From assembly GCF_963576615.1 (NCBI RefSeq), contig NC_088714.1, positions 5,864,170 through 5,928,169 of the forward strand: DNA of 64,000 bases. The letters are read 5' to 3'. The position numbers and the translations under genes are program-made. Shown here piece after piece: positions 13,128 to 60,408 of the stretch; positions within the stretch are counted from its first letter, which is position 1; each line of letters opens with the position of its first letter. Under the pieces are notes generated by a model. That model saw nothing but the letters and a program-made list of their open reading frames with translations. It did not search any database and was not told where the DNA came from. This DNA is from Watersipora subatra (taxonomy: Eukaryota; Bryozoa; Gymnolaemata; Cheilostomatida; Watersiporidae).

Positions 13128-16100
13128 CTAATATTTGGGAGGTGGGGTGTCTTTTCCTGAAAGTTGAGTTGCCATCACAGCACCTCCTTCTTCTCCTTGC
13201 CTCAAATCTACCTATGTAACAAAAATCAGATACATATCAAAGACAATCACATACATATCATAGATTAGGGAATAGCCATGGGATATCACATATCATAGAG
13301 TAGGGAATAGCCATAGAATATCACATATCATAGAGTAGGGAATAGCCATAGGATATCACATATCATAGAGTAGGGAATAGCCATAGGATATCACATATCA
13401 TAGAGTAGGGAATAGCCATAGGATATCACATATCATAGAGTAGGGAATAGCCATAGAATATCACATATCATAGAGTAGGGAATAGCCATAGGATATCACA
13501 TATCATAGAGTAGGGAATAGCCAAGGGATATCACATATCATAGAGTAGGGAATAGCCATAGGATATCACATATCATAGAGTGGGGAATAGCCAAGGGATA
13601 TCACATATCATAGAGTAGGGAATAGCCATAGGATATCACATATCATAGAGTAGGGAATAGCCATAGGATATCACATATCATAGAGTAGGGAATAGCCATA
13701 AAATATCACATATCATAGAGTAGGGAATAGCCATAGGATATCACATATCATAGAGTAGGGAATAGCCAAGGGATATCACAAATCATAGAGTAGGGAATAG
13801 CCATAGGATATCACATATCATAGAGTGGGGAATAGCCAAGGGATATCACATATCATAGAGTAGGGAATAGCCATAGGATATCACATATCATGGAGTAGGG
13901 AATAGCCATAGAATATCACATATCATAGAGTAGGGATTAGCCATAGAATATCACATATCATAGAGTAGGGAATAGCCATAGAATATCACATATCATAGAG
14001 TAGGGAATAGCCATAGGATATCACATATCATAGAGTAGGGAATAGCCATAGGATATCACATATCATAGAGTAGGGAATAGCCATAGAATATCACATATCA
14101 TAGAGTAGGGAATAGCCAAGGGAGCTGGAGCAGAAGCTTTAAAGAAGATGCTAGCAACTACCGATGTGGCTACTATCAAATCTTTCATGGGACCGATTCG
14201 GTTTTACCACAAATTTCTACCAGATCTATCTACAATTACTGTAATTGTCGATAGATCCGGTATAGATCTATCTACAATTACAGTAATTGTAGATACATCT
14301 GGTAGATCTATCTACAATTACTGTAATTGTAGATAGATCTGGTAGATCTATCTACAACAGTACCTCTCCAGAAGTTACTCGAGAAAGGAGAACAATGGCA
14401 CTGGAATACGGAACAGCAGACTGCCTATTTGAAGCTAAAGGAGATGCTATGCAGCAACACGGTGTTGGCACACTTTGACCCTTCTTTGGATATTGGGATT
14501 TTTTGTGATGCATCAGACGTTGAGCTAGGAGCGGTACTTTTTCACCAATACAAAGATGGCAGTGAAAGACCAATTTCTCATGCTAGCAAAACACTGACCA
14601 ATACTCAGAGAAGATACAGTCGAATTCAAAAGGAAGCTCTATCTATCATCTATGAACTAAACAAGTTTCACCAGTTTATCTATGGAAGGAAGTTCATCTT
14701 GGTGACAGATCACAAACCTCTACTAGCGCTGTTTGGACCAACTAAAGCAACCCCCGCTATGGCAGCAGACAGACTGGCAAGATAGGCTCTTACTCTCAAC
14801 CAATATGACTATACCATTGTAAAATAGGAAAACCTTTGAACATGGAAACGCAGATGCACTCTGTCGCTTACCCATTGAACATGATCACAAGTTTGATGGG
14901 GAGGAAGAAGGCAAAGATATTGACACAATATGCACAATCAAACACAATGGAATACGGCTGAATCCAACAGATCCTGGTATTCCGAAGATAGAGACAGCTA
15001 AGGATTCTGTGCTCAGCACAGTGATGGGATATCTGAAGGATGCAAAAAGATCTGAAAGAGCATGATGGCAACCAAGCTGGAATCATGACTAAAGGCTATT
15101 TTGTAAAAGACTTCAGGAAACTTGAGATGTCATTGTCAGCTGATAGCAGATGCTTGATGTATGGAACAAGAGTTGTCATACCACTATCTCTACAAAGACA
15201 AGTTCTTCAACTTTTACATCTTGGACATTTTGGCATGCAGAGAATGAAGCAACTTGCTAGAACTGCTGTTTACTTGCCCAGGATGGATCAAGACATCACA
15301 GATACTGCACACCAATGCATTTCACACAATGAGCATCAAAACAAGCCTGATCGTCTACCAAATCACCCTTGGATGATGCCAGAAAAACCATGGAGCACGG
15401 TACACATCGACCATACAATTAACTTCATGGGAACCAACTGGTTGGTGTTAGTGGATGCCTACACAAAGTATCCATGTGTACATGCTACCACTTCAGTATC
15501 AACCAAAGCTACTACAGATTCACTCAAGAAGGACTTTGCTCACTTTGGATGTCCACATACCATAGTGTCTAATAATGGAACTACATTTACTTCTGAGGAA
15601 CTTCAAGAATGGTGCAGAAATCGGGGCATCATTCACCTGACAGAAGCACCATTCCATCCAGCCACCAGTGGAGCTGCAGAAAGGCTAGTTCAATCCTTCA
15701 AACAAGCACTCAATAAGTAGGATCTCTCAGCTCAGTCTGCTTTGCAAGAATTCTTGATGATGTATAGAAACACGCCACTGTCTTATGGTTACTCACCCAG
15801 TGAACTGCTGAATAGGAGACAAATCCGAAAAAAAGATCGATACATTACTGCCATCACCAGCTCACTTAATTCAAAGCAAACAGATGCAGGAGAACCGATC
15901 AACTGAAACAGTTCATCATTACACAGTGGAAACACCATGCTATGCTTTATACTGTGGACCCAAAAGAGATAAACAGCCTAAATGGGTGAAAGCTGTTGTT
16001 ATCAAAGCATTTAGCAGCAGAACAGTCAATGTTAGAGTACTACCCAGAGTACCAACTTGGAAGAGACATCTGGAACAGCTTTGTCCTAGACATATTTTAC

Positions 16101-19100
16101 CAGAAGGGGCTGAACCACCTGCCGAAATACCAACTACTTCAAACAGTCTTCCAAAATCATAACCGTTGCCTGCAGCCACAGTACCAAAACCAAAAAGACG
16201 AAATCCAAGATTACCTAATGGCAATGAATACAACAGGGACAATTCCAGACGCTCAAAGAGACAACCTAATTGCTGAAGTCACCCATACAACTTCAAGCTA
16301 GCAGAGAGGTATTAGGACATTACAATGGACAATCAATGCATTACATAGTGAATGAAATTTACTATGTCATTATAGTATTATACATAGCTGATTATTTATG
16401 GAATAAGTTCATATAAAATTTACTTGCTGAATGTATAGTTCAAGGATAATACTTATGCTATTTCAGCTCTCTATACATATATACTTGGGATGTCTTTTCA
16501 TAATTCATTGTGAACTCAGTACTGAAATAAAAAACATTACAGTGAGAACACGACAAAATACATATCAGATACAATCACATACATATCATAGAGTTGTATC
16601 ATAAATGATACAGCTCATATCATACGGAGTTGTATCATATACTTACATATAACTGGTAAAAATACTAAATACTGTGCATGCAGCCACACCCATCGCACCA
16701 CCATCAACACTAAGACACTGGTGCTATTGATGAAGTGTTTGTCTGTAGGTCTATCTGTCTGCTGTGAGTGTGATGCAAAGGCTTTATCATCAAAAATGTT
16801 AGCATCACTTGTACCCCCAAACAGCATAAAGTTCTTTTGAAGGTTGCGTGACATATACATGTACTGCAAGTTTAACTAACAGGCTAGCATATGGACCTTG
16901 GTTAATGAAGCAAGTGTTTGCTTTGAAAAACCAAGGGCTAAAGCAAATAGAACTTATGTATTATAGTGGAAGTTCTTTATTGTCATTGAACTTAGTTGAT
17001 GATCAACGTTTTCTGTCAAACAGCGACAAGCACTTTTTCAGCAAACTAACATCTTTGACACCTCTAAGCTGCTGAGTGTACTTCTGATACACCATCTCAA
17101 GGAAAGAGATACTGCGAGATGTCTTCTAAGCCTTCAAGCTTCTTTGCATGCTAAGTTACTTTAAACTTGAAGATCTCATTGCTAGTAACTCTAAACACTT
17201 ACAGAGGAATAAGATGGCGGACGGAGAGGGTCAACAGTTGGTTGTTTTCCGAAACAAATGGGTACCGTATATGGGACTCCATCTTTTTTCACATCTGCAT
17301 GAATAAAACTTTGTTATCAAAGTTGCTGCAAGCAATGACAATCAGTAAGTTTTTGTTTAAATCAACCTATAAAAAACCTCAGTGAGCCTTGATGAAACTT
17401 TTACAAGTTTAATACTAGAACCATACCAACATAAATGTTTTAGTATCACATTATTACATTGTTATAGTTTATATTCTCTTTTTTACAAGCTCAGTTGTGT
17501 GGAAACCTTTGCATTTCTTGTTTGTAATCAATGTTACACAGCACTATAAATTAGCTGCAGTAAGCTTTTTCTGATTATGTACTTGTAACAAAAAGATACT
17601 AGCACCAGATAGGACAACCCTGATATACATTATAAAAAAAAAACATATATATATATAATTATATATATAAGTATATATATGTATATTTTATATATATAAA
17701 AAATTATATATATTTTTTTTACATATGTATAAGTATATATATATATATATATATAATTATATATAAATAGATATATATATATTTATATATATACATGTAT
17801 ATATGTATAATATACTCATGCTTCAGACAGAGCTGTTTCGGCTATGGAAGCCTCATTAGTGCAGCTCAGAGCAGGCAAGGGAGACAAATCCCATTGCCAA
17901 TGGGAGTTTATATATACAAATTGTTTTCTCACCTATATATCCTCACATATATATATCCTCACATATATCAATCTGCTGCTCTTACAATGGACCTACGCCC
18001 TGATGATGAAGAAATTGACTGGCACACGGAACCTCTTCATGGTGCTTACCAATGACAAATATTTAAGGTTGGCGATCTTCACCAGACATATATGTGGCTG
18101 AACAAAGGAAACCTAACGGCCAATACAGAGTTGCTAATCATGGCAGCCCAGAAGCAAGTGCTCCCAACAAGGCAACTCCAAACAAAAATCTATCACATTA
18201 GAGACAATCCTACATGTAGATGCAGACTGTGCAAAGATGCACCTGAGACCATCCAACACATCATCAGTGGATGCAAGCAGCTAGCAGGAAACGTATACAC
18301 TGAGCGGCATAATCATGTCGCAGGTGTTGTGTATAGAAGTCTATGTGACGAGTATGGCCTTAATAAACCACAACACTGGTGGGAAGCTCCTGGTAAGGTA
18401 AATGAAAATGACCGCACTAAGATCCTCTGGAACTTTTACATCTAGGCTGACAAGCATGTCCTAGCAAACCAACCAGATATAGTGGTGGTGGACAAGGAGA
18501 ACAAGAGGGCTACTATAATAGATATAGCAGTACCCAATGACTACAATATAGCCAGCAAAGAAAAAGAAAAGGTAGAGAAATATCTCCCTCTTGGAGTAAA
18601 GATGGAAAAATGCTGGAATGTAAGAACAACTGTAATTCCAGTAGTCATTGGGGCACTGGGCGCAATAAGACCGGCGCATAAAATGTGGCTTGCCCAAATA
18701 CCAACAGCAATCAAGTCAGGTGAGTTGCAGAAAAGTGCGCTATTGGGAACAGCTAAGATCTTGAGGCGAGTGCTCAAACTCCCAGGTCTCTGGTAGGAGA
18801 CCCGAGTTAGAGCAAAAATTACCACCCATACAGGGTATCCAGGGTGAGGAAACAATTTTTTTCATATGTATATTAAAACTGTTGTGCGCAACCTCTACTG
18901 AAAAGTACTCAATGCTAGGCAGAGCATATGTAAAATGCAGCAACTAAGCAGATAACATAACACGGAAAATATTAGCTCAAGCACAACCATATACAATCAA
19001 AACAAAATGACCCAAACTATGTTTACTATAAAGGCCTATAAAAAGGCTTCCTAATATGCAAACCACACTTGAGCGCATTGAATAAATGGAAGGAGTTGTC

Positions 19101-22100: not shown

Positions 22101-25100
22101 TTACAGACAAAAGACTGAAAGGATACATACCAACTGTAAGGAGCTATAGGCAGTAAGTAGTTAATAAGCTTTAACAGCACACATGTAATTCTGGGCTAAG
22201 AATTGAAGAACATTATGGGGGATGTTGCGAGGTTTATACAATTCAAGTTCATTAAGAGCTCAGGCTATTTTCTTTTGTTAGCTGTCATAGTTTTTGACAT
22301 CATTTTACTACTTAGCAAAAGAGATTTAGCATTCCACCTGCTTATTAAGTGTAGAACATGTTGCTACTGGCATAACAGTCGCATAATTTGCTATAAATAG
22401 GTGTTTATATCTGATTGACTGAGACGAAATCAACCATGCATAGCTTACCAAGCAGTGATCCGTTATAACTCAGAGGCTCTTTCTCCGTAATCCCATAAAC
22501 TAAGGCTGCCGCATCAATAGATCTGGTTCTTGGCTTCTTAAAGCAGCAAACAGCAATGGATATGGCAGCAACTATAGCCACAAGGCCAGAGAGTGCGATG
22601 ACAGCAATCATCCAAGCACTGCAAAATAAATTCAGCACGTAAAGCAAGTATAGGCAGCAGACAACGCAGAATGTAGACTGATTCTTTATTATCATTATCA
22701 AAGTATCAGCGATTTCAAATTAATGGCTGAATTTAAAGAGTTTCTTGTGTTTGTCGGTTGCCCTAGCAACCAGCTCAACAAAGTAAACAAATAAAAACTG
22801 GAACTCTTTGAACAAATTTTTCAAACTTATTTACAATTTGTTGCTCTCGCTTTATAGTTACTCATGAACAAACAAATTATACACCACTAGATTCAAAGTC
22901 TAATCAAGATTCAGAATATCCTATCAACTAATCTGTAAAATAAACCCTAATCAGATTAGATGCAGTTTCGTGAACCAATGTAACAAAAATGATTGGATTA
23001 CATATCACCAAGTGTTTTGACATTTCTTTTTCTGCAAATTTATAAACTTAAGTTCTTTGTTATAACAGTTGTTCAAATAATATAACTTGAAACAAGCAAA
23101 GAAAAATGTATGTGGTGTGATCATATTGTATCAGATGTACAGATTGTTATCTTCAGTCATTAATAAAATGAAATGTTCAGAATTTAGCCCCCATAATAAT
23201 TTGAAAACATAATTTTTCAGCTACTTGATCAAAAAATTTAAAATTGGGACAAAATGACGATTAATTTGTTATATAATTTATGACTATTGGCTAAATTCAA
23301 AATGAGTCATAATGTTAAAGATGACAATTTTAGTTTTTTACCAGCAGAGTCCATGTCATTTCACACACCACTTGATATGAAAAATATTTTTGACCAAGTA
23401 CATGCTAATCCACCTGCATACCTCAGTTTCAGTCCCTCCTGTTTAGATGGGTCACTTTGCCACTTTGATGACTGCAATTAAAATTAAATTAAACTTCAAT
23501 TAAATCTAGTATATCAGATAATAAAGTAATAAAATACTAAAATATAATGTTTGGATAATGACTGGTAGCATCAGCCCTGCAGCTTGTATTTTTCAAGAAG
23601 ATGCGTGACAAAAAGTTAATTTTTAGCTCGCAACAATGTTCAAACTGTTGATGGCACCGAAAGTGCTGGTACATTGTTGAAGGTGAACTACTACATATAT
23701 CAGTAGTAGAACAAATAGATTTTCCAACTTGGAGACAAAGGTAAAAAACACAAAAATTTGATATGTTCAGAGCTCATAGTTCTTGATTTTAGTTAGTCAG
23801 CCTTACCCAAAATCCTCTCTTACTTGTCTTCCCATCTTCAGCTTCTTTACCACCTTTCTTTTCGCTCTCTGGTTTTGGTCCTTGATCTTTATCGCCATGT
23901 TCACCACCTTTATCATTATCTTCCTCTTCGCTGTCTTCTTTTTTCCAATCATTTTCTTCACTGTTACTTCTGCCGCCACTCACTTCTTCACTTTCCCAAT
24001 TGTCCTCTTCACTGCTTCCCCGGCTGCCTCTGTCTTCTTCACTGCTCCGATCGTTTTCTTCACTGTTACTTCTGTCACCACTCACTTCTTCACTTTCCCA
24101 ATTGTGCTCGTCACCGCTTTCTTGGCTGCCTCTGTCTTCCTCACTGCTCCAATCATTTTCTTCACTGTTACTTCTGTCGCCACTGACTTCTTCACTTTCC
24201 CAATTGTGCCCTTCACTGCTTCCCCGGCTGCCTCTGTCTTCTTCACTGCTCCAATCGTTTTCTTCACTGTTACTTCTGCCGCCACTGACTTCTTCACTTT
24301 CCCAATTGTCCTCTTCACTGCTTCCCCGGCTGCCTCTGTCTTCCTCGCTGCTCCGATCGTTTTCTTCATTGTTACTTCTGTCACCACTCACTTCTTCACT
24401 TTCCCAATTGTGCTCGTCACCGCTTTCTTGGCTGCCTCTGTCTTCCTCACTGCTCCAATCATTTTCTTCACTGTTACTTCTGTCGCCACTGACTTCTTTA
24501 CTTTCCCAATTGTGCCCTTCACTGCTTCCCCGGCTGCCACTGTCTTCCTCGTTGCTCTGATCGTTTTCTTCATTGTTACTTCTGTCACCACTCACTTCTT
24601 CACTTTCCCAATTGTGCTCGTCACCGCTTTCTTGGCTGCCTCTGTCTTCCTCACTGCTCCAATCATTTCCTTCACTGTTACTTCTGTCGCCACTGACTTC
24701 TTCACTTTCCCAATTGTGCCCTTCACTGCTTCCCCGGCTGCCTCTGTCTTCTTCACTGCTCCAATCGTTTTCTTCACTGTTACTTCTGCCGCCACTGACT
24801 TCTTCACTTTCCCAATTGTCCTCTTCACTGCTTCCCCGGCTGCCTCTGTCTTCCTCGCTGCTCCGATCGTTTTCTTCATTGTTACTTCTGTCACCACTCA
24901 CTTCTTCACTTTCCCAATTGTCCTCGTCACTGCTTCCCCGGCTGCCTCTGTCTTCATCACTGCTCCAATCATTTTCTTCACTGTTACTTCCGTCGCCACT
25001 GACTTCTTCACTTTCCCAATTGTCCTCTTCACTGCTTCCCCGGCTGCCTCTGTCTTCTTCACTGCTCCGATCGTTTTCTTCACTGCTACTTCTACCGCCA

Positions 25101-26703
25101 CTGATTTCTTCACTTTTCCAATTGCCCGCTTGACGGCTTTTTCGGCTGCTTCTGTCTTCATCACTGTTCCAATCGTTTTTTTCATTGCTGCGTCTCCCAC
25201 CACTGACTTCTTCACTTTCCCAATTGTTCTCTTCACTACTTCCCCAGCTGGCTCTGTCTTCCTCGCTGCTCCAATCGTTTTCTTCACTGTTACTTCTGCC
25301 ACCGCTCACTTCTTCACTTTCCCAATTGTGCTCGTCACCGCTTTCTTGGCTGCCTCTGTCTTCCTCACTGCTCCAATCGTTTTCTTCACTGTTACTTCTG
25401 TCACCACTGACTTTTTCACTTTCCCAACTGTCTTCTTCACTACTTTTTTGGCTGCCTCTGTCTTCCTCGCTGCTCCGATCGTTTTCTTCACTGTTACTTC
25501 TGCCACCACTGACTTCTTCACTTTCCCAACTGTCTTCTTCACTACTTTTTTGGCTGCCTCTGTCTTCCTCACTGCTCCAATCATTTTCTTCACTGTTACT
25601 TCTGCCGCCACTGACTTCTTCACTTTCCCAATTGTACTCTTCACTGCTTCCCCGGCTGCCTCTGTCTTCCTCGCTGCTCCGATCGTTTTCTTCACTCTTA
25701 CTTCTGCCACCACTCACTTCTTCACTTTCCCAATTGTGCTCGTCAATGCTTCCCCGGCTGCCTCTGTCTTTCTCACTGCTCCAATCGTTTTCTTCGCTGC
25801 TACTTCTGCCGTCACTGACTTCTTCACTTTCCCAATTGTCCTCTTCACTCTTTCCCCGACCACCTCTGTCTTCCTCACTGCTCCAATCATTTTCTTCACT
25901 GCTACTTTTACCGCCACTGATTTCTTCACTTTTCCAATATCCCGCTTGACGGCTTTTTCGGCTGCTTCTGTCTTCATCACTGTTCCAATCGTTTTCTTCA
26001 CTGTTACTTCTGCCACCACTGACTTCTTCACTTTCCCTATTGTCTTCTTCACTGCTTTTCTGGCTGCCTCTTTCTTCATCACTGCTCCAATCATTTTCTT
26101 CACTGTTACTTCTGCCGCCACTGACTTCTTCACTTTCCCAATTGTCCTCTTCACTGCTTCCCCGGCTGCCTCTGTCTTCCTCGCTGCTCCGATTGTTTTC
26201 TTCACTGTTACTTCTGCCACCTCTCACTCCTTTACTTTCCCTATTGTCTTCTTCACTGCTTTTCTGGCTGCCTCTTTCTTCATCACTGCTCCAATCATTT
26301 TCTTCAATTTTGCTTCTGCCGCCACTGACTTCTTTACTTTTCCAATTGTCCCCTTTACTGCTTCCCCAGTTGTCTTCATCTCTGTCATCACCCTGTCTGC
26401 CTCTATTGTCCCATTCGTGTCCTATTTCTCTGCTAATACCTTCTAGTCCACCACCTCCACGCCCACTTCTATTGCCTTCTTTGCCAGACACAACTGCAAA
26501 AAAAGATGTAAGGACTAAAATTCCTCATATTAATGACATCTACAATAAAGGAAATCAGACAAGACAAATCTCAAGTATAGCCTATAAAATTTTCATGTAA
26601 TTTTAAGGTTGAAAAAAATGAGATCTAGCAAATTAGATTTCTATATTATACCACAGATGACTGCCATGAGCACAGCAAGTATCGCCAGCACTCGTAGAGC
26701 CAT
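13128..26703 (-). CDS. P1: type I membrane protein with giant acidic Ser/Glu repeat ectodomain and PY-motif tail, 1044 aa
   Basis: Exons (minus strand): 26652-26703, 23807-26493, 23422-23471, 22449-22618, 17203-17294 and 13128-13211. All introns are GT-AG, phases are 1,0,2,1,0, and the total is 3135 nt (1044 codons plus stop). Exon 1 encodes the signal peptide MALRVLAILAVLMAVIC, completed by VVSG from exon 2. Exon 2 (about 895 aa) is 24 copies of a 34-aa unit containing SSEEDRGSRGSSEEDNW, ESEEVSGGRSNSEENDW, then a Lys/Glu-rich end KTSKRGFW. Exon 3 is a 50-nt micro-exon ending GLKLR. Exon 4 has the membrane span ([20 protein letters not shown]), CCFKKPRTRS at the inner face, and a degraded PY motif (PLSY). 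Exon 5 encodes [15 protein letters not shown] and RPPSYSS. Exon 6 ends TPPPKY. Topology and PPxY recognition by WW domains follow established rules. Abundant S-x-E sites suggest secretory-pathway phosphorylation and calcium binding (inference). Introns 4 and 5 are swollen by LINE, hAT, pogo and Ty3 debris. No known family name is recognised. Confidence 0.85.
13245..14125. repeat. 35-bp tandem array, about 25 copies, in P1 intron 5
   Basis: Units contain ATCACATATCATAGAGTAGG and GAATAGCCATAGG. The array begins about 30 bp from the exon 6 acceptor (13211/13212) and ends where the Ty3 remnant starts. P2 has only single-copy traces at the equivalent place (38420-38460). Unit variants (AAGGG versus ATAGG versus ATAGA) recur in blocks, indicating block duplication. 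Confidence 0.9.
14126..16310 (+). pseudogene. Ty3/gypsy retrotransposon pol remnant (RT end, RNase H, integrase)
   Basis: A 5'-truncated pol lies in P1 intron 5, antisense to the gene. The first part is the end of reverse transcriptase (SFMGPIRFYHKFLPDL). RNase H follows at 14429-14785 with its acidic residues kept (IFCDASD, QKEALSI, LVTDHKPL), then a stop at 14783. The integrase part is at 15040-15720. Its zinc region has HLGHFGMQR but CISH in place of the usual CxxC, and its core has VHID and GAAER but VSNNG where the second catalytic Asp is expected. A stop at 15718 and another near 15904 separate a chromo-like C-terminal part at about 15884-16162. No gag, protease, early RT or LTRs are seen. 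It is clearly dead. Confidence 0.85.
14224..14356. repeat. three tandem palindromic units inserted in the pol remnant
   Basis: About 45-bp units, each containing the self-complementary core ATCTACAATTACTGTAATTG followed by TAGATAGAT, split the end of reverse transcriptase from RNase H. Each unit can fold as a hairpin with arms of about 16 bp. Confidence 0.8.
16311..17202. other. P1 intron 5 sequence shared with P2 intron 5, no gene
   Basis: AT-rich intron DNA. Positions 16560-17200 align with 38440-39260 of P2, including the region around CATGCAGCCACACCCAT, which confirms common descent. The twin palindromes of P2 are reduced here to a trace at 16600-16640. No exon was found other than exon 5. 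Confidence 0.6.
17636..17820. repeat. TA-rich simple repeat
   Basis: Degenerate (TA)n with interspersed TATGTATA and TTTATATA blocks. It is followed by a copy, in reverse orientation, of the repeat found at 39863-40320 (GCTGTTTCGGCTATGGAAGC). This is the same association of that repeat with TA tracts seen in P2 intron 4. Confidence 0.8.
17966..18860 (+). pseudogene. 5'-truncated LINE copy (3' end of the 40396 element)
   Basis: Homologous to 42828-43716 of the full element. It starts within the C-terminal part of the ORF and keeps the CCHC zinc motif and endonuclease coding. Reading is broken, for example TAG at 18443-18445 where the full copy has CAA, and TGA near 18052. The 3' end GGTGAGGAAACAATTT is followed by ATATGTATAT. 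It lies in P1 intron 4, antisense to the gene. Confidence 0.88.
19397..19872. mobile_element. hAT-type MITE with 8-bp target duplication and satellite core
   Basis: The left end CAGGCCTGCCAAC and right end GTTGGCAGGTATG form terminal inverted repeats. They are flanked by the identical octamer ACCACGAT at 19389-19396 and 19873-19880. An 8-bp duplication and CA-type termini fit the hAT superfamily. There is no transposase. Most of the interior is a 20-bp tandem array, and the element lies in P1 intron 4. Confidence 0.85.
19530..19858. repeat. 20-bp satellite TGCGTGAGTCTCACGCCCAA, about 16 copies
   Basis: Each unit contains GCGTGAGTCTCACGC, two 7-bp complementary arms around one base. The array is almost homogeneous (single variants at 19649, 19715 and 19826) and is bounded by the ends of the hAT-type MITE. 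Confidence 0.93.
19881..20292. repeat. interspersed repeat ending CGGGCAACGTCGGGTGGCAC, copy A
   Basis: Homologous over about 400 bp to 30607-31020. Shared parts include GGCTATAGCTATTATTAGAA, CCATTGGCAATATGCCAGGC and a terminal GCTAGTATAT that runs into TA repeats. A short relative is at 34105-34210. The class is not recognised, and no ORF is present. Confidence 0.7.
20325..20776 (+). pseudogene. short 3' fragment of the LINE
   Basis: Matches 43265-43716 of the full element, covering the last 130 codons (PD...DIAVP endonuclease part) and the 3' untranslated end. It is flanked by (TA)n at 20290-20318 and TATATATGTATATATA at the 3' side. It lies in P1 intron 4. Confidence 0.88.
20793..21920. 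mobile_element. pogo/Tigger-like non-autonomous transposon, copy 2
   Basis: Same family as 507-1628. The left end is AGTCAAACATGGATAACTCG (first C lost) and the right end GAGCTATCCGTG...GTTTGACTG is followed by TA. It has the same internal order of motifs and a diverged version of the internal hairpin (about 21493-21556). It lies in P1 intron 4 next to TA repeats. Confidence 0.75.
23807..26493 (-). repeat. 102-bp coding tandem repeat (24 units) in P1 exon 2
   Basis: This exon is nearly all 102-bp (34-codon) units. Since 102 is divisible by three, the plus strand also stays open for 887 codons (Phe/Thr/Ser/Leu-rich) and other frames stay open too. The minus frame is the coding one because it joins a signal-peptide exon and a micro-exon in phase across canonical splice sites. 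P2 carries little more than one degenerate unit, so the array expanded after duplication. Confidence 0.9.
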
Positions 26704-26840
26704 GGCACGTCAGCACTGGTGAGAGTGATCCAGTCAACTATACAGCTTATTCAGTCTCTCAGGTTTTTTCAGGTTGATCCAAATCAGCGCATGCGTAGTT
26801 CGAGCCAATTGTCACGCATGCTAACAAAAGCCTATAGAAA
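26704..26840 (-). promoter_or_regulatory. P1 5' UTR and proximal promoter
   Basis: Conserved with the regions before P2 and P3. It includes the self-complementary core of CGCATGCGC with AGCGCATGCGTA (plus 26786-26797), resembling the NRF-1 consensus, an ATTGG (reverse CCAAT) about 15 bp further upstream, and a TCACTCTCACCAG segment just before the ATG. No TATA box is obvious. Confidence 0.5.
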
Positions 26841-34256: not shown

Positions 34257-34345
34257 TGAGGATTAACTTGGTGGACAGAGTGGATCCGCTGGTGTTGCTC
34301 TTCAAAGCATATTGACACCATATAGGTAATGTCATCTTTTCATAT
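34257..34345 (-). pseudogene. relic of P3-type exon 5
   Basis: Aligned with P3 exon 5 (57042-57133), with the flanking acceptor (ATGTAG) and donor (GTAAGTGTG) still present. It has a 2-nt and a 1-nt deletion, and the Tyr codon of the PPSY motif has become TAA. Flanking similarity to P3 intron DNA stops soon after at about 34350, where the next duplication unit begins. Confidence 0.82.
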
Positions 34346-34475
34346 CTACATGACATCTCAAATTAGCCATTGGCAATGTGCCAGGCTAATGGCAAGTGGC
34401 AGGCAACTACATTACCTCTCATTGTTCATAAGCTGATTTTTAATACCTGTGCAATTCCGGGACTAGCAATACGCT

Positions 34476-38322: not shown

Positions 38323-40316
38323 CTAATATTTGGGAGGTGGAGTGTCTTTTCCGGAAAGTTGAGTTACCATAACAGCACCTCCTTCTCCTCCTAGCCTCAG
38401 ATCTACCTATGTAACAAATATCAAATACATATCAGATACAACCACATACATATCACAGAGTTGTATCATATATGATACAACTCTGATGTTTAGTATTTTT
38501 GCAAGCTATATCCAAGTATATGATACAACTTGGTATGATATGAGTTGTATCATATATGATACAACTCATATCATACCAAGTTGTATCATATACTTGGATA
38601 TAGCTTGCAAAAAGCAAAGTATTTTTGCAAGCTATATCCAAGTATATGATACAACTTGGTATGATATGAGTTGTATCATATATGATACAACTAATATACC
38701 AAGTTGTATCATATACTTGGATATAGCTTGCAAAAATACTAAACACTGCATGCAGCCACACCCATTGCACCACCATGAATACTAACACGCTGGCGCTATT
38801 AATGGAGTGTCTGTCTGCTGTGAGTGTAGTGCAAAGGCTTTATCATTGAAAATGTTAGCATCGCTTGTACCCTCAAACAGCATAAAGTTCTTTTGCAAGT
38901 AGCGTGGCATATACCTGTACTCCAGTCTCCGGGTTAAACTAACAGGCTAGCATATGAAACCTTGGCTAAAGAAGCAAGTGTTTGCTTTGAAAGACCAAGG
39001 GTTAAAGCAAATAGATCTTATGTATTATAGTGGGAGTTCCTTATTGTCATTGAACTTAGTTGATGAACAATTTTTCTGTCAACAGTGACAAGCACTTTTT
39101 CAGCAAACTAACATCCTTGACACCTTTAAGCTGCTGAGTGTACTTCTGATAAACTTTCTCTAGGAGGAGATACTGCGAGGCGTCGTCTAAAAATTTTAAC
39201 TTTCTTGCGTGCTTCAACTAACTCTAAATTTAGAGATCTCAAGCTAGTAACTCTAAACACTTACAGCGGAATAAGACGGCGGGGCGAAAGGGTCAACAGC
39301 TGGTTGCCTTTCGAAACAAATGGGTACCGTATATGGGACTCCATCCTTCTTCACATCTACATGAATAAAACTCTGTTATCAAAGTTGCTGCAAGCAATGA
39401 CAGCCATTAAGTTCTTGTTTAAATCAACCTGCAGAAAACCTGAGTAAGCCTTAATGAACTTTTACAAGTTCATTACGAGAGCCTTATAACCATGAACGTT
39501 TAAGTATTATATTATTACATTGTTATAGTTTCTATTCTCCTTTTTATAAGCCCTACTTGTGTGGACACCTCTGCATTTGTTGTCCATAATCAGTGTTGCA
39601 CAGCGCTATAAATAGCTGCAGTACATATATATATACAATATATATATATACATTGTATATATATATATATGTTGTATATATGTTGTATATATATACCTTG
39701 TATATATATACGCTGTATATGTATATACAATGTATATGTATATACAACGTATATATATACGTCGTATATATATATACATCGTATATATATACATGTATAT
39801 ATACGTTGTATATATATACATGTATATATACAAGTGTGTATATATATATATATATATATATTGTGCAAAGCTCATCACTTTTGTGATTTGAGCACTCTGG
39901 TGTCAGCACATTGACTTTCTTAAAGTCTGTGAGGCAACCTAGATGTTTCGTGGCAGGAAGTCAACTATCATTGGTAATGGGATTTGTGTCCCTTGCCTAA
40001 GCTCTGAGCTGCACTGATGAGGCTTCAATAGCCGAAACAGTACTGTCTATAGCATGAGTATATGCTCCCTCACTTCGGTTTGGTTGAGCACCCTGTGAGA
40101 GGTGTGGCACTATTAGCCTTTGTGCAAAGCTCATCACTTTTGTAATTTGAGCACTCTGGTGTCAGCACATTGACTTTCTTAAAGTCTGTGAGGCAACCTA
40201 GTTGTTTCGTGGCAAGAAGTCAACTCTCATTGGTAATCGGATTTGTGTTCCTTGCCTAAGCTCTGAGCTGCACTGATGAGGCTTCAATAGCTGAAACAGT
40301 ACTGTCTGTAGCATGA

Positions 40317-43763: not shown

Positions 43764-46700
43764 GGGTGGTAAATTCTGCTCTGACTCTAGGAGACCCAAG
43801 TTAGAGCAGAATTTACCACCCATACGGGGTATCCGGGGTGAGGAAACAATTTTTTTTTTCATGTATGTATATATAAAGAGAAAATGGAAACAAACTATGC
43901 GAGAAATTGAAAAGAAGTTGCATGGGTTTTAAGAACAGACAATGAATGACCATTGTTACAGACAAAAGACTGAAAGGATACATACCAACTGTAAGGAGCT
44001 ATAGGCAGTAAGTAGTTAATAAGCTTTAACAGCACACATGTAATTCTGGGCTAAGAGTTGAAGAACACTATGGGTGGTGTTGCGAGGTTCATACAAGTCA
44101 AGTTCATTAAGAGCTCAGGCTATTTTCTTTTGTTAGCTGCCATAGTTTTTGACACCATTTTACTGCTTAGCAAAGTAAATTTAATTTGCATCATTCAACT
44201 CCCATCTTTTGCTATAAATACATGTAGATGTTTAGACCTGATCGACTGAGATGAAATCAACCATGCATAGCCTACCAATCAGCGAGCCATTATAACTCGG
44301 AGGCTCCTTCTCCTTAATCCCATAAGCTAAATCTGCCGCACCAATAGATCTGGTTCTAGGCTTCTTAAGGCAGCAAACAGCAATGGATATGGCAGCGACT
44401 ATAGCCACAAGGCCAGAGAGTGCGATGACAGCAATCATCCAAGCACTGCAAAATAAATTCAGCATTTAAAGTAAGTATAGGCAGCAGACAACGCAGAATG
44501 TAGACTGACTCTTTATTATCATTATCAAAGTATCAGCAGTTTTAAATGGCTGAATGTAAAGAATTTCTTGTGTTTGTCGGTTGCCTTAGCAACCAGTTCA
44601 ACAAAGTAAACAAATATAAACTGGAACCCTTTGAACACATTTGTCAAACTTATTTACAATTTGTTGTTCTCGCCTAGTTACTAGTTACTAGTTACTAGCA
44701 AGCAATCTACTAGCTACAATCTTAAACTATACCACTGAATTAAAAATCTTGTCAAGATTCAGAATATCTTATCAAATAATGTGTAGGATTTACCAAAATA
44801 GGATTAGATGCAGTTTCGCCAACCAATGTAATAAAAATTATTGGATTACATATCACCAATTTTTTTAATATGATTTCTTTTTTCTCAAACTTATAAACAC
44901 TAAAAATTCCACTGTCATACAGCCCACGACCAAAGTGATATTGGAAAAAAGAAAGGGTACTGATGGTTGAGAAATGCAATATTAGCAGTCAAATAGGATA
45001 ATTGCAATGGTAGCTGTCATGCGCTGGGTGTTATTATATACAACAAATAGCAATAATGAAAGGAAAAGATTATATGTTTATATCTTTTCTCCTGCAAAAA
45101 AAATAAATGCAATATTGGCCAATATTAGAAGTAAAATGCACTGATATTATTAGAATAACCAATATTATTTATATAGTAATAATAAAAAACCAAAGCACAA
45201 TTTTTTTTACATTTAAAAACGGCATAGCTAACAATATCACGAAGTTGCGATATTTATATAGATTTTAAAAAAATCTGTACTATGTCGTCATCGTCCTGTA
45301 GTCATCCAAACTTATAATTAATTATTGCAATAATCTCATTAGAACCGTTAGAAAAAATATCATCGTCATGCCTTTACTTACACTGCGTTAGATTGTTAAA
45401 AAGTCTGTACTACGTAGTCATTGTTCTGTAGTCATCCAAACTAATAATTAATTATTGTAATAATCTCATAAGAAACGTTAAAAATATCATCGTAATTTGC
45501 TTTACTTATACTGCGTTGGACATCAGTTAGAATGGGAAAGTATTCAAATGTGTCGGCAAATGAAAATGAAAAAATTGAAATCGGCAAAAATGAAACGATT
45601 TCTGTACTCCTATGTTAATTGCCAAAACCATCGGCAGTTCGACAATGCCATAGACTGGTAAAAAGTGCACGCTGTTTTTTCGTGAACTGAGCAAGACTTC
45701 ATCGTTCTACTATCTGTCCCTCGGCGTTTTAATTTTCGGTCTTAACTTTTATTAAACCAAGCTTTTCAAGTGTTTTGTGGCGATTTTCGTTGAAATTAAT
45801 CTGTCTATTTGTGTATAATCCGATCAGATGGGTAAGTTTTAAGATATTATCGAAGGTTTACAAAGACTTGGTAACATATTTAAATAGGTTTAAATGTGTT
45901 TTGTAACGTTATTATTCTTTAACGACTTTACATTCCGATGCTTAAATTCGTTGATGAAATTTCTTGACGAGGGTTCGTCTCATTGTTGATGAATATTTTC
46001 GTAAGTTGTGTGCACATGCATTTATCATAAAAACTCCCCCACTTCGCTCCGCTCGTTCGGTCGTGGGATAACTTCTTTGTTGAAACTATATGACTCGAAA
46101 TGAGCAAAAAAAATGTATGTGGTGTAATCACATTTGTACAGATTGTTGTCTTCAACCATAAAAAATGAAATGTTTAGAATTTAGTCAACATAATAATTCC
46201 CAAACATAATTTTGCAGCTGCTTGGTTTACAATTTAAAAATTAGGAAAAAACAAGTATTAATTTAATATATAATTTATGACTATTGGCTAAATTCAAAAT
46301 GAGTCATAATGTTAGAGATGACAATTTTAGTTTTTTCCCAACAGAGTCCAGTTTATTTCACACACCACTTGATATGAAAGGTATTTTTGACCAAGTACAT
46401 GCTAATCCACCTGCATACCTCAGTTTCAGTCCCTCCTGCTTAGATGGGTCACTTTGCCACTTTGATGACTGCAATTAAAATTAAATTAAACTTCAATTAC
46501 ATGTAAATTTAGTATATCAGATAATAAAGTAATTAATTACTAAAATATAATGTTTGGATAATGACTGGTACCATGGGCCCTGCAGCTTGTATTTTTCAAC
46601 AAAATGCGTGATAAAATAGTAATTAATTTTTAGCCCCCAATAATGTTCAAATTGTTGACGCTACCAAAAGTGCACATACATTGTTGAAGGTGATCTATTA

Positions 46701-47604
46701 TATTAGTAGTAGAACAAATAGGTCTTCCTAATAGGAGAAAACGGTAAAAAAACACAAAAATTTGATATGTTCATAGCTCATGATTTTTGGTTTTAGTTAG
46801 TAAGCCTTACCCAAAATCCTCTCCTACTTGTTTTCTCATCTTCAGGTTCTTTACCATCTTTTTTTTCACTCTCTGGTTTTTGTCCTTTATCTTTGTCGCC
46901 TTGTTTATCACCTCTCTCTTTCTTCTCATCATCTTCACTATCGTGTTTGGTTTTGTCTTGTTCATTCTTCGTATTTGAAGGAGCATCTTCATCATCGTCT
47001 TCTTCCTCTTCGCTGTTATTCTTTCTGGGATTGTCTCCTTTTTTCCAATCATCTTCTTCGCTGTAACTTCCGCTGTCACTGTCTTCCTCACTGCTGTAAT
47101 CGTTTTCTTCACCGCTTCTTCTGCCACCACCATCTTCTTCACTTTCCCTATAATTGTACTCTTCACTGCTTCTCCCGCTGCCTCTGCCACCACCTCCTCC
47201 ACCTCTTCCGCCTCCACCTCCTCCATGTCCACCTCCTCCTTGTCCACCTCCTCTTTGTCCACCTCCTCCTCGTCCACCGCCTCCTTGTCCACCTCCTCCA
47301 CGCTCACCTCTATTGCCTCCTCCGCCCAAAACAACTGCAAAAAAAGATTTAAGCACACAAATTTATCATATTAAATTTATTAATATATCATATTAATGAC
47401 GTCTACAAAAAAACCACAAGGAAGCTTTTCTTTTGTTTAATGTTATAAATATGTTCGTCAAGACAAAACTGAAGGACATAAAACATTTTTGTAATTTTAA
47501 GGCTGAAAGCAATTGGAATTAGCGAGCTACAATGTAAATTGTTATATCATACCACAGATGGCTGCCAAGATTACAACAAGTATAGGCAGCACTCGTAGAG
47601 CCAT
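38323..47604 (-). CDS. P2: type I membrane protein with Gly-rich/acidic ectodomain and PY-motif tail, 323 aa
   Basis: Exons (minus strand): 47553-47604, 46811-47334, 46419-46468, 44276-44445, 39265-39356 and 38323-38406. Phases match P1 exactly and the total is 972 nt. The signal peptide is [17 protein letters not shown]. The ectodomain begins with GGGG(R/Q/H) runs, then [16 protein letters not shown]-type acidic sequence equal to little more than one P1 repeat unit, then a Lys/Glu/Asp stretch ending KTSRRGFW. The micro-exon is identical to P1 at protein level. The membrane span is followed by [10 protein letters not shown] and an intact [10 protein letters not shown]. Exon 5 encodes [15 protein letters not shown] and APPSYSA. 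Exon 6 ends KDTPPPKY. All three PPxY motifs are present, one per exon. Intron 4 contains the full-length LINE in antisense. Family not recognised. Role as a WW-domain (for example Nedd4-type ligase) client is inference. Confidence 0.87.
38487..38747. repeat. two tandem palindromes of about 118 bp in P2 intron 5
   Basis: 38496-38613 reads the same on both strands around a centre at 38554/38555 (GTATCATATATGATAC). 38622-38736 is a second copy with a 3-nt deletion in one arm, centred at 38680/38681. Outer flanks (TTTAGTATTTTT and its complement) extend the symmetry to the pair. P1 intron 5 has only a single-arm trace. Confidence 0.9.
39615..39865. repeat. TA-rich minisatellite with ACATTGTATATATA units
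   Basis: Degenerate TA repeat with regularly placed TACA/TGTA. All six frames are largely open (Tyr/Ile). Not coding. It lies in P2 intron 4. Confidence 0.85.
39866..40318. repeat. two direct copies of a short interspersed repeat
   Basis: The first copy (from 39866) and the second (from 40121) both run from GTGCAAAGCTCATCACTTTT to ACAGTACTGTCTGTAGCATG-like ends. Reverse or partial relatives occur at 17820-17935 and 21955-21980. The copies adjoin TA repeats. Possibly a SINE. No polymerase III boxes identified. Confidence 0.65.
40319..40395. repeat. (TA)n microsatellite at the LINE 5' junction
   Basis: About 77 bp of perfect TA ending directly at the first G of the LINE. Confidence 0.95.
40396..43716 (+). 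mobile_element. full-length RLE-type LINE inserted in (TA)n
   Basis: Begins GGGCGACGTCCGAGCC immediately after (TA)n, has one long ORF, and ends GAGGAAACAATTTTTT followed by (TA)n at 43719-43760. The first 37 nt can form a strong hairpin (GGGCGACGT with ACGTCGCCC, CGAGCC with GGCTCG). The order reverse transcriptase, CCHC zinc motif, PD-(D/E)xK-like endonuclease places it near the R2/R4-Dong/NeSL-type LINEs with restriction-like endonuclease. It lies in P2 intron 4, antisense to the gene. Confidence 0.88.
40412..43654 (+). CDS. LINE polyprotein: reverse transcriptase plus restriction-like endonuclease, 1080 aa
   Basis: Uninterrupted ORF of 1080 codons. An N-terminal block ([29 protein letters not shown]) resembles DNA-binding regions of this LINE group. 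Reverse transcriptase motifs follow in order: NYRPITCL (about residue 435), [14 protein letters not shown] (about 500), [10 protein letters not shown], the catalytic YMDD (605-608), then GYKYLGI. The C-terminal zinc motif [18 protein letters not shown] starts at residue 890. The endonuclease-like part is PDIVVVD (974) ... IDIAVP (Asp about 990) ... KEKEK. The true start may be the ATG at 40508 (MKWTRTD), leaving a 112-nt leader. The enzyme would copy its RNA at a nicked target by target-primed reverse transcription (family knowledge). It looks intact and could be active. Three relatives in the window are 3' fragments. Confidence 0.9.
43775..43856 (+). pseudogene. very short LINE 3' fragment
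   Basis: Repeats the last ~80 bp of the element (GAGTTAGAGCAG-type to GGGTGAGGAAACAA) just after the TA tract at the end of the full copy. It is preceded by an inverted piece (GGTGGTAAATTCTGCTCT), so a small rearranged second insertion. Followed by ATGTATGTATATATA. Confidence 0.75.
44446..46418. other. P2 intron 3, no gene
   Basis: Both ends align with P1 intron 3. The middle (about 45000-46080) is extra AT-rich DNA containing two diverged direct copies of a block of about 110 bp (CTGTACTATGTCGTC-like at 45290 and CTGTACTACGTAGTC-like at 45405). Nothing coding was recognised. Confidence 0.55.
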
Positions 47605-47730
47605 GATGAGTCAGGTGGTGATAGTGATCCAGTCGACTACAGCTCATTCAGCTTCTCTCCCAGGTTGATCCAAGTCAGCATACAGCGCATGCGTAGTTCT
47701 AGCCAATCGTCATGCGTGCAAACAAAAGCC
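47605..47730 (-). promoter_or_regulatory. P2 5' UTR and proximal promoter
   Basis: Same order as P1: TCACTATCACC near the ATG, GCGCATGCG at 47685-47693, reverse CCAAT (plus CCAAT at about 47704), and TTTCTAAAGGCTTT on the minus strand at the distal end. Confidence 0.5.
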
Positions 47731-56280: not shown

Positions 56281-59200
56281 TTAATATTTGGGAGGCGGAG
56301 TCTCTTTCCTTGGGGGCTGGATTGGGGGTGTGATCACTGTCACAGTGCTGGTTTCATCTCCTTGCCGCAAATTAATCTATGAAAATATATAGATGGTGCT
56401 GTGATAGTAAATATTAGAAAGTTGCTGCCTATGTGCAGACCATTCTACTCATTTTACCATCGTCTACCTTGTCAGTACCATTGTCTACCTTGTCAGAAAG
56501 GTACTATCGATGGTGTATCTGTGATAAGTACACCGCGAAGTAACCTGCAGCTATATGCCAGATGTAAAGGCCTTGTAACCACAAACACAGCATTAAGCTT
56601 GCGCATAGTCAACATCAGCTTATAGACTGCTAGGATTATGGTTACACCTTACAAATGGCTCTACACAGGAACTCTGGCCTAGAATTCAATTGTTGATGTT
56701 AGCTTTGACTACAGCTCTAAAGTAAATATAGCCTACTGGTAACAGAAGGAGGTAATTAATACCACTGAACTTAGTGAAAGCCAAACCTTTTGTCAACAAT
56801 GACATGCATATTTTTAACGCAACCAACATTTTCTGACCTCTGATCACTCAATAAAAAAAACTTGCCACCTGACTGACAAGGCCAATTAAAAGTGTTTTAG
56901 ATCAAGTGTTCAAATGCTTCAATTTGCCCAGGTTTATACGTTATCAAGCCTATAAATTATCTTTTGTACAGGTAAAGCAGACGAAGTAAGACCATTATTA
57001 AAATAGAAGAAAGCACATTGCCTGCGCTCCTACACACTTACTGAGGAGTAACTCGGTGGATGGAGTGGATCTGCAGGTGGTCGCTCTTCAAAGCATATGG
57101 GCACTGTATAGGAAATGCCATCCTTCTTCATATCTGCATGACATGAACAAGATGACTACAGTTACGAAATTGCTAAAACACTACAATAACTAACAAGTAC
57201 TGAGCGTGATATACTCAACTAGAGTCTGATTCATCTTATTTAAGGAAACCAAACAGTTAGCCTGTGAGGAAACTTTTGCAGTTGCAAATTTTTTACTGGA
57301 GTCTTGACAACAATATTGTGTTAGTACATTCCCTTTCAAAAAAGCCTTGCTCTTATAAACACACCAGCCAGCTCCATACACTAAGATCAATAGAATATCG
57401 CAATATTCAGTATATTTGACTCCAGATTTGCATCTAGTTAGTCACACAAAGACAACCAGAAGTCGAAGAAGCTGAATATCTCATTCAATAACTGATGCAC
57501 TCTTTAAGGTATGTACTATCTTTTGGTTCTTTTAATTTTTGGCGCCAACTACTTCAATGTGTATGTATATAGTTTACTCAGGACCTGTTGATTCTAGGTA
57601 GTATATTTATATCTGATTTACTGTCATGGGATGGAGTATATAAGCCTACCAAACAGAGATCCATTATAGCTGGGAGGCTGGTCTTTCTCTTTGACCTCAT
57701 AAGGTAAAACTGCCGCAGTTGATGGTTTCTTTTTAGGTTTACAACAGCAAATAGCGATAGAGGCCGCAGCGATGACGACCAGAATAGCAGACAGCGCAAT
57801 GACGACAACTCCCCAAACGCTAGAAAATAAAGTCGGCAAGTCTTTGCAGTTCATATGCAAATGTAACTCATTCTCATCAATCAATATGACAACAGGTTTA
57901 AAAAATTAAAAATTGCATTAGATCCTACCTTACAAGTCAAAAGTTGTGTTATTGTTTTTAGTTCTCCAACAAAATTTTAATCTAAACTAGGAAATCATGT
58001 AAAATATTTTGGGCCAAGTGCTTGCTAATTTATCTACATACCTGAGTTTCAGTCCTTTGTTCTTTAGGGTATCTTTCAATCTTGTAGACTACAATGACAT
58101 ATAGTTTAGATCAGATTATAAATGTTCATCAATGGCAAGTGGTAGCAGTCTGGTAGCAACAGCCCTGCACCTGGTTCTCTTTAGAATAGTCAAACAGTAA
58201 AGAGTGCGGGACTTTTACTTCTCAGAGTTATCTGAACAATTGTATGTGATGAAAATACAAGTTTTTCGCAGCAAAAGCATCAGGTATTTTTTCTACAGTT
58301 GTTAAGTTTTTAAATTACTCCTCAATGTATTCAAACAATAAGTTGAAGTCTTTGCTCTTCTTTTATAAAAAAGAGGAGTTCTCCTTCTGTATAAGGCAAT
58401 GATGATTACATGTTTGTTTTTGCAAAATTACTATACAAAATGAGAAGTTGTTCATTTAATCAAAATTTTGAGATTATTTAGCCTGACTTGACTTTTTGAA
58501 ACAATTTCAAGTTTGAATAAGTCATATAAAGGTTAACAATGCAAGTTGAAAAGTCTCAACTACGCAGAAGTTGAGTATATTAATAGAGTAAAATCGCTAA
58601 ACTTCTGCTGCTATGAAGTCTGTTAGCCTTACCCCATTGTCTTCCTCACTTTCCATATCACCGCCAGGGTTTTTATCACCCTCCTGTTCATCACCGCCAG
58701 GGTTTTTATCACCCTCCTGTTCATCACCGCCAGGGTTTTTATCACCCTCCTGTTCATCACCTGGTTTTTGTTCCTCCTTTTTATCATCACTCATCTTTTT
58801 GTCTTCACTTTTCATTCCATTATCTTTGTCATCTTGTTCTGTTCCATCTCGTCCATTATTCTCATCCAAGTAGGAGTCATCTCCTTTGTTTCCCTCGTCT
58901 CTACAATCACTCCCTCCTTGCTCCGGGCAACCCTCTCCTTCTCCATCTCTTTCACTATGTCCGTAACCACCTCCACTTGACACAACTGAAAAAATAAAGA
59001 CATGCTACTTTAAATATAGACATACTCCTTTAAATAAAGACATACTACTTTAAATAAAGACATACTACTTTAAATATAGACATACATGTACTCCTTTAAA
59101 TATAGACATGCTACTTTAAATATAGACATACTATTTTAAATATAGACATACATGTACTCCTTTAAATATAGACATGCTACTTTAAATATAGACATACTAT

Positions 59201-60408
59201 TTTAAATACAGACATACTCCTTTAAATATAGACATACATGTACTCCTTTAAATATAGATATGCTACTTTAAACATAGACATGCTACTTTAAATATAGACA
59301 TACTATTTTAAATATAGACATACTCCTTTAAATATAGACATGCTACTTTAAATATGGACTTATATTTTAAATATAGACATACTCCTTTAAATATAGACAT
59401 GCTACTTTAAATATAGACATACTATTTTAAATATAGACATACTCCTTTAAATATAGACATGCTACTTTAAATAAAGACATACTACTTTAAATATAGACAT
59501 ACTACTTTAAATAAAGACATATTCCTTTAAATATAGACATACTCCTTTAAATATAGACATACTCCTTTAAATATAGACATACTCCTTTAAATATAGACAT
59601 GCTACTTTAAATAAAGACATACTCCTTTAAATATAGACATACATGTACTCCTTTAAATATAGACATGCTACTTTAAATAAAGACATATTCCTTTAAATAT
59701 AGACATACTCTTTTAAATATAGACATGCTACTTTAAATAAAGACATACTCCTTTAAATATAGACATACATGTACTCCTTTAAATATAGACATGCTACTTT
59801 AAATAAAGACATATTCCTTTAAATATAGACTTGCTACTTTAAATATAGACATACTATTTTAGATATAGACATACTCCTTTAAATATAGACATGCTACTTT
59901 AAATAAAGACATACTACTTTAAATATAGACATACATGTACTCCTTTAAATATAGACATGCTACTTTAAATATAGACATACTCATTTAAATATAGACATAC
60001 TACTTTAAGCATGTCGATTAAGGATTTTTTGTTCCAATGAGGTGTAAGAAATATTTTTGTGTTATAACATGAAATCTTAACAAGTATGATAATAATAATA
60101 CCAAACCATTTTAAAGCCTCATTTAATCTCCTTGAAGTCTGTGACAGCCAGTATAACAACCTTTGTTGGACTCTTACAACATGGAGTATCTTTCTGAGAT
60201 ACACAAACGTACCGTCCTAATTACACCTCAACGAATGAGTGGCTATGTATTATTTTATATTTTAATCTGTTTTGCATAGATTTAAAAAAATTGAAAACCA
60301 AATAAAAGTTAAATTAATTTATTAGCCATCCACACAAAAGTATAAGACTATCATACCGCAGATGACTGCCAAGAGCACAGCAAGTATTGGCACCAATCGT
60401 AGAGCCAT
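56281..60408 (-). CDS. P3: type I membrane protein with short acidic ectodomain and three PY motifs, 269 aa
   Basis: Exons (minus strand): 60357-60408, 58633-58985, 58042-58088, 57650-57819, 57042-57133 and 56281-56376. Phases 1,0,2,1,0 as in P1 and P2. Total 810 nt. The signal peptide is MALRLVPILAVLLAVIC. The ectodomain has two Cys (GCPEQGGSDC), a Lys/Asp/Glu-rich part and three perfect copies of the 11-aa unit GGDEQEGDKNP, ending ESEEDNG. The 47-nt micro-exon ends NKGLKLR, one codon shorter than in P1 and P2. The membrane span is followed by CCCKPKKKPS and KDQPPSYNGS. Exon 5 encodes DMKKDGISYTVPICF and HPPSYSS. Exon 6 encodes INLRQGDETS and ends ETPPPKY. All three PPxY motifs are intact. 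This is the most diverged and most compact of the three complete paralogues. Intron 1 holds a 20-bp array. Function unknown. Confidence 0.87.
58660..58760 (-). repeat. 33-bp coding repeat, three copies, in P3 exon 2
   Basis: Three nearly perfect 33-bp units encode GGDEQEGDKNP. Identity at the DNA level indicates recent expansion, parallel to but independent of the P1 repeat. Confidence 0.85.
58998..60008. repeat. 20-bp array ACTACTTTAAATATAGACAT, about 50 units, in P3 intron 1
   Basis: Variants differ at two to three positions (ACTCC, GCTAC, ACTAT) with occasional 4-bp insertions giving ACATGTACTCC. The array starts within about 13 bp of the exon 2 acceptor, so the branch-site region lies within repeat units. 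Confidence 0.93.

Follow-up and report, generated by a model that had tools for sequence, protein, structure and literature searches.

A 64,000-nt stretch of the Watersipora subatra genome (contig NC_088714.1, positions 5,864,170 to 5,928,169), hereafter the window and numbered from its first letter, holds on its minus strand three complete six-exon genes, A, B and C. We read them as a locally duplicating family of type I single-pass trafficking adaptors that act through PPxY (PY) motifs, a reading that we consider to have an even chance of being correct. Each predicted product has a signal-peptide-like start, a disordered and nearly Cys-free ectodomain, one transmembrane segment bordered on the inside by a Cys-Cys, and a ~90-residue tail with PPxY motifs. 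With moderate confidence, the family can be described as a variant of the known PY-motif single-pass adaptors.

The genes follow each other in the 5' to 3' order C (60408-56281), B (47604-38323), A (26703-13128), and the predicted products comprise 269, 323 and 1044 aa, respectively. All 15 introns are of the GT-AG type, and the intron phases are 1,0,2,1,0 in each of the three genes. This architecture, together with the outer coordinates 13128 and 60408 and the exon 2 lengths of 2687 nt (A), 524 nt (B) and 353 nt (C), is exactly as given in a preliminary description of the window. All three products have an N-terminal and an internal hydrophobic segment, so that A, B and C show the predicted signal peptide and single membrane pass that characterize the Shisa-like (STMC6) PY adaptors discussed below. 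Past the stops of A, B and C, the first AATAAA or ATTAAA is reached after ~142, 142 and 151 nt. About 250 bp upstream of the genes can be aligned among all three, and an element which we take to be NRF-1-like is identical in each of the three aligned regions. The exons and this element are as follows.

Gene A exon 1, 26652..26703, minus strand: signal peptide (52 nt, phase 1, N-terminal hydrophobic segment)
Gene A exon 2, 23807..26493, minus strand: ectodomain, ~24 units of 34 aa (102 nt)
Gene A exon 3, 23422..23471, minus strand: micro-exon, 50 nt
Gene A exon 4, 22449..22618, minus strand: transmembrane segment, Cys-Cys, PLSY
Gene A exon 5, 17203..17294, minus strand: RPPSY
Gene A exon 6, 13128..13211, minus strand: TPPPKY and stop
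Gene B exon 1, 47553..47604, minus strand: signal peptide
Gene B exon 2, 46811..47334, minus strand: ectodomain, Gly-rich then acidic, with about one diverged copy of the unit of A
Gene B exon 3, 46419..46468, minus strand: micro-exon, 50 nt
Gene B exon 4, 44276..44445, minus strand: transmembrane segment, Cys-Cys, PPSY
Gene B exon 5, 39265..39356, minus strand: APPSY
Gene B exon 6, 38323..38406, minus strand: TPPPKY and stop
Gene C exon 1, 60357..60408, minus strand: signal peptide
Gene C exon 2, 58633..58985, minus strand: acidic ectodomain with an 11-aa (33-nt) tandem repeat
Gene C exon 3, 58042..58088, minus strand: micro-exon, 47 nt
Gene C exon 4, 57650..57819, minus strand: transmembrane segment, Cys-Cys-Cys, PPSY
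Gene C exon 5, 57042..57133, minus strand: HPPSY
Gene C exon 6, 56281..56376, minus strand: TPPPKY and stop
Upstream element TACGCATGCGCTG, 26785-26797 (A), 47683-47695 (B) and 60504-60516 (C), minus strand

The relationship of the three genes is clearest in the membrane and tail exons. With the exons of C as queries, A and B are matched at 54.3 and 59.7 bits (exon 4), 54.3 and 53.1 bits (exon 5), and 27.7 and 25.4 bits (exon 6); the best scores of five exon queries in 20 first-order Markov windows, which served as the chance control, were 18.1-20.8 bits. The matches among A, B and C are thus beyond chance. Over exons 3-6, A and B are identical at 115 of 131 residues, A and C at 72 of 129, and B and C at 73 of 129. 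The shared exons had been called near-identical, which is appropriate for A and B and not for C, where the micro-exon (47 nt as against 50 nt in A and B) and exon 6 (96 nt as against 84 nt) differ in length as well. The dN/dS ratio over exons 3-6 is 0.30 for A/B, 0.13 for A/C and 0.18 for B/C, the latter two being rough because dS to C is 2.2 (A) and 1.7 (B). Exons 3-6 are under purifying selection. Measured onward from the Cys pair, the tails are 91 (A), 91 (B) and 95 (C) residues long. They contain two, three and three PPxY motifs at corresponding places, with the last one at the C-terminus; A has two such motifs and not three, the first of its sites reading PLSY. These numbers exceed what composition would give (they were reached by 24, 1 and 9 of 20000 shuffles for A, B and C, respectively).

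The ectodomains comprise 895 (A), 174 (B) and 117 (C) residues. The A ectodomain is built of ~24 units of 34 aa, each with two related 17-aa halves when judged by eye. In B, a Gly-rich start is followed by approximately one diverged A unit, and the end, which is acidic and rich in Lys, looks similar by eye to that of A; in C an acidic stretch carries the 11-aa repeat. Comparison of the window with itself aligns the 102-nt units of A with positions 47072-47186 of B at ~78-85% DNA identity. Since A and B lie in duplicate segments (described below) and B retains a diverged A unit, their ectodomains are related, and the statement in the preliminary description that the ectodomains are unrelated is wrong for this pair. 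Acidic residues (D+E) outnumber basic ones (K+R) by 291 to 109 in A, 46 to 30 in B and 40 to 14 in C; B is therefore only mildly acidic. The ectodomains of A and B have no Cys and that of C has two, and all three fall on the disordered side of the charge-hydropathy relation.

Substitutions in the A array were analyzed in 23 units with 189 changes from the consensus. In the coding frame, 61 are synonymous, 127 are replacements and 1 creates a stop, against 47.5, 133.1 and 8.4 expected, which places N/S at 0.74 of expectation; one antisense frame gives 0.69. As the repeat period is a multiple of three, more than one frame stays open for long distances. Tandem repeats are recorded in 59 rows over the window, mostly outside the exons of A, B and C (some rows overlap and describe the same array), and repeat growth in the ectodomains fits the window as a whole. 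The earlier picture of a conserved PY tail joined to a fast-changing, charged and disordered ectodomain agrees with these data. Its further claim, that the ectodomain is selected for bulk charge and length, is weakly suggested by the avoidance of stops and the N/S of the coding frame, and is opposed by the antisense value, the mild acidity of B and the many tandem-repeat rows outside these exons.

A segmental duplication of ~23 kb underlies the cluster: the segments 11.5-34.3 kb and 34.7-57.1 kb are collinear in the self-comparison, with local identities of ~74-97%, and gene A lies in one duplicate and gene B in the other. Two further traces of the family, a relic and the divergent member D, are found in the window.

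Decayed exon-5 relic of the C type, 34257..34347, minus strand: in-frame stop and frame changes; 25.4 and 22.7 bits
Member D exon 4, 63852..64000, minus strand: cut by the window edge; transmembrane segment, Cys-Cys-Cys; 25.8 bits (Markov maximum 20.8)
Member D exon 5, 63100..63194, minus strand: reads into an in-frame TAA; 25.8 bits (Markov maximum 19.2)

The relic is located upstream of A and adjoins a match to the 3' flank of C; an unequal exchange presumably broke a C-type gene. The two exons of D have the same order and strand as those of the other members. The best-kept block of D is exon 5, with the pattern D(V/M)K(K/I)DG(V/I) ... P ... F ... P ... YS. Queries with exon 6 found no corresponding exon of D in the window at E up to 1. 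A candidate for its first exon (52 nt, donor GTATG) lies ~3.4 kb past the window edge, the intervening DNA being partly N.

In the whole genome of the species (783.7 Mb, 239 contigs), all 8 matches of the C tail fall within the A-D cluster (E up to 10), and all 20 matches of the A repeat fall inside exon 2 of A (E up to 0.01). The D tail finds its own two exons and three matches elsewhere at E 1.9-2.8. No further close copy of the family was found in this genome, with the limit that the C query missed D and the relic, the D query missed A, B and C, and the A-repeat query missed the repeat copy in B, so that divergent copies may exist.

Mobile and repetitive sequences are present in the introns and flanks of the genes. 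Intron 4 of B contains a reverse-transcriptase frame of 1085 aa (40397-43651, plus strand), and truncated stretches related to it occur in intron 4 of A (17965-18873 and 20330-20793). An LTR-type element is represented in the last intron of A by frames for RNase H and integrase (14333-15717, plus strand). In the first intron of C, a 20-nt tandem array of ~49 copies (58992-60008) ends beside the exon 2 acceptor, and upstream of B there is a 10-nt tandem array of ~163 copies (48144-49772).

In the adaptor reading, the Cys residues at the inner edge of A, B and C would be palmitoylated, and the spaced PPxY motifs would dock proteins with several WW domains, most likely ubiquitin ligases of the Nedd4 family. 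The docking would set the surface level or the endolysosomal routing of the protein itself or of a partner. The ectodomain would form a hydrophilic, mainly anionic brush, contacting Ca2+, basic matrix or a partner through its charge. Its length would shift by gain or loss of repeat units with a period that is a multiple of three, so size would come to vary among the copies under continued constraint on the membrane and tail exons. In A, S-x-E sites number 118 against 47.3 expected from shuffles (sd 5.3), and in B 8 against 2.3 (sd 1.4); the Ser residues of these sites in A and B may thus be phosphorylated by a secretory kinase of the Fam20C type. The Fam20C model gives 17 matches over its cut-off in the W. 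subatra genome (10 in C2:32.61-33.09 Mb, 3 on C1 and 4 on C9), so a kinase for the S-x-E sites plausibly exists in this genome. The ten matches in one region suggest, as a separate observation, that secretory kinases have expanded locally. That the ectodomain faces matrix, mucus or mineral is a guess, for which the S-x-E enrichment (A and B only) and the Fam20C matches are circumstantial.

Several observations weigh against the adaptor reading as set out here. S-x-E sites are not enriched in C (1 against 1.2 expected from shuffles, sd 1.0), and the excess over shuffles in A is overstated, because one repeat motif has been copied many times. As one antisense frame gives a lower ratio than the coding frame (0.69 and 0.74), the array alone is no proof of the frame. 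The fifth exon of D, although related, has no PPxY, with PRY standing at the position of PPSY in A, B and C.

The nearest known systems are the following. CYYR1 binds the ligase WWP1 through its PPxY motifs and targets WWP1 for degradation in lysosomes (PMC11399591). WBP1L, a palmitoylated protein with three [L/P]PXY motifs, binds and regulates Nedd4-family ligases and also regulates CXCR4 (PMC6991692). Commissureless (Comm) and PRRG4 are PY-motif membrane proteins that alter the traffic of Robo (PMC5578492). The group of CYYR1, WBP1L and Shisa-like proteins (STMC6) is single-pass, as are A-C, and its tails have three PPxY motifs in CYYR1 and three [L/P]PXY motifs in WBP1L. The STMC6 ectodomain, in contrast, is Cys-rich (C*C*CC*CC), whereas those of A, B and C are charged and repetitive, with 0, 0 and 2 Cys, and A, B and C matched no STMC6-related Pfam model. 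Comm resembles A-C in being a PY-motif membrane protein without ectodomain Cys (PMC5578492). Its key motif is LPSY within GLPSYDEAL, whereas the tails of A, B and C have no LPxY, and it lacks a signal sequence, unlike A, B and C with their signal-peptide-like start. Given the shared layout, A-C may work like these proteins, but they have neither the Cys-rich ectodomain of STMC6 nor the LPxY of Comm that would place them in either group.

If the tail does dock Nedd4-type ligases, the family would represent PY adaptors with a charged, disordered ectodomain, varying in length by repeat growth, in place of the usual Cys-rich one. The three intact genes, the relic and the divergent member D, all adjacent, offer a natural series in which ectodomain length and charge vary against a fixed tail. 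A broader formulation, which we regard as rather improbable, is that of a class of membrane-tethered brushes phosphorylated by Fam20C, possibly restricted to a lineage, with the WW-docking tail fixed and the length of the poly-anionic ectodomain determined separately in each gene by in-frame expansion of minisatellites. If the brush interpretation is true, the choice of the expressed copy could tune the contact of the cell with matrix or mineral.

Among the alternatives, it is possible, though unlikely, that A-C are phosphoproteins facing a biomineral or matrix, with an acidic, S-x-E-rich ectodomain phosphorylated in the Golgi and displayed on or shed from the surface, and a tail controlling only delivery and recovery. 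Such a role would suit the A ectodomain, in which 291 of 895 residues are D or E, as well as the S-x-E enrichment of A and B and the Fam20C matches described above. The P16 proteins of the sea urchin are a further example of acidic membrane proteins. By composition only, the acidic secreted phosphoproteins of biominerals resemble these ectodomains in their acidic low-complexity sequence and S-x-E-type sites (PMC4094399). Fam20C participates in shell formation in the pearl oyster (PMC5824888), 16 of 46 unique phosphosites in Lottia shell proteins fit Fam20C or related motifs (PMC4094399), and about one third of the proteins of the sea-urchin spicule matrix are known or predicted to be transmembrane and are perhaps shed (PMC2909932). 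However, biomineral phosphoproteins are matrix proteins, whereas A-C combine a membrane segment with a PY tail that is conserved. Furthermore, C has no S-x-E enrichment, the acidity of B is mild, phosphorylation in the secretory pathway is not peculiar to mineral, and no such family was found by text search of open-access papers.

Also unlikely, in our estimate, is that the ectodomain has no specific role, exon 2 being lengthened by minisatellite slippage with only stops and frameshifts purged, and the tail and membrane part alone being functional. With 59 tandem-repeat rows in the window, most of them outside the exons of A, B and C, ectodomain length may be a by-product of mutation, and both the weak constraint in the A array apart from stop avoidance and the spread of ectodomain lengths (895, 174 and 117 residues) point the same way. 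On the other hand, net negative charge and low hydropathy are kept in all three ectodomains, and the ends of exon 2 are similar, by eye, in A and B.

That A-C are dystroglycan-like adhesion receptors, with a tail that binds the WW-EF-ZZ unit of dystrophin and a long ectodomain that binds matrix, appears very unlikely. Dystroglycan shares with A-C the single pass, the basic character of the inner edge and tail sites of the PPxY type. In the W. subatra genome, three loci exceed the cut-off of the Pfam model DAG1 (23.3 bits); their tails are mutually unlike and have PPAY or PPRY sites. The exon 3-6 product of C scores 21.3 bits on DAG1 and the whole protein 19.8, the best match of the D tail outside its own gene (E 1.9) falls in the best of these three loci, and an hhalign comparison of the family with the three DAG1-like tails including membrane helices gives a probability of 93.5 and E 2.3e-7. 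This last match is, however, confined to the membrane helix and the Cys-Cys-Lys edge; the helix piece alone accounts for 13.6 DAG1 bits in C, and the tails of C and B freed of the helix match nothing. The A tail has 11.9 bits on DAG1, and B and full-length A have no DAG1 match. Against a human dystroglycan tail, the score of the A tail was reached by 10 of 1000 shuffles, but those of B and C by 102 and 151 of 1000. With the tails of the W. subatra loci, no fewer than 86 of 1000 shuffles scored as high in each of 24 comparisons, whereas a control tail (8 comparisons) went down to 23, and for the tail-only hhalign score of 11.7 against two of the three loci, 10 or more of 60 column shuffles did as well. 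In full-length A, B and C, Pfam found no match to the DAG1 ectodomain that precedes the helix. A-C thus stay under the cut-off of DAG1, their tails do not clearly exceed the controls, and a DAG1 ectodomain is absent; the link is not supported for A-C and may be kept as a lead.

A syndecan-like proteoglycan, with putative glycosaminoglycan chains on Ser-Gly sites in acidic surroundings, appears very unlikely and is rejected: A has 29 Ser-Gly, 27 of them with at least three acidic residues within seven, but they are one repeat copied, B has 3 (2 so placed) and C has 1 (0 so placed), the syndecan model is absent from the Pfam scans of A, B and C, and all nine comparisons with three human syndecan tails were reached by at least 46 of 1000 shuffles.

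Searches for other relatives gave the following. Scanned against Pfam, A, B, C and the fragment of D matched no model above its cut-off, and no NCBIfam model came near its cut-off for the B and C tails. TMIE (Pfam; 11.4-16.6 bits, cut-off 27) was rejected, its matches sitting on the membrane helix, and a DUF4688 match of D was below threshold (15.9 bits, cut-off 27). Among PDB sequences, the C tail had a single match, to a CoxIn chain (E 0.11). In viral contigs, 55 stretches fitted a pattern and one of them was put forward as a relative, with 33% identity and E 1e-5 among the candidates; this stretch sits in frame within a phage reading frame of 607 aa containing DVKKDGI and was taken as chance. 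None of 42 stretches from prokaryote genome contigs was confirmed as a relative. A mollusc haemocyanin model had 0 matches in the W. subatra genome and likewise none in 14 controls. Text searches of open-access papers found no description of the family, and searches of the literature with its peptides as text returned results unrelated by title.

Elsewhere in the window, ARAGORN and Rfam gave no match. At 1950-5540 (minus strand) there is possibly an unrelated gene for a secreted acidic protein, with the signal-peptide-like MVRTLLVLLILCITNGIAEES followed by acidic exon-like pieces, three of which were scanned and had no Pfam match at E up to 1. At 9151-10294, ~48 tandem copies of a 24-nt unit form an array with long open frames on both strands, and its Pfam matches look like artefacts of the repeat. 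An inverted repeat at 3632-3947 has 150-nt arms, 91% complementary, separated by a 16-nt spacer.

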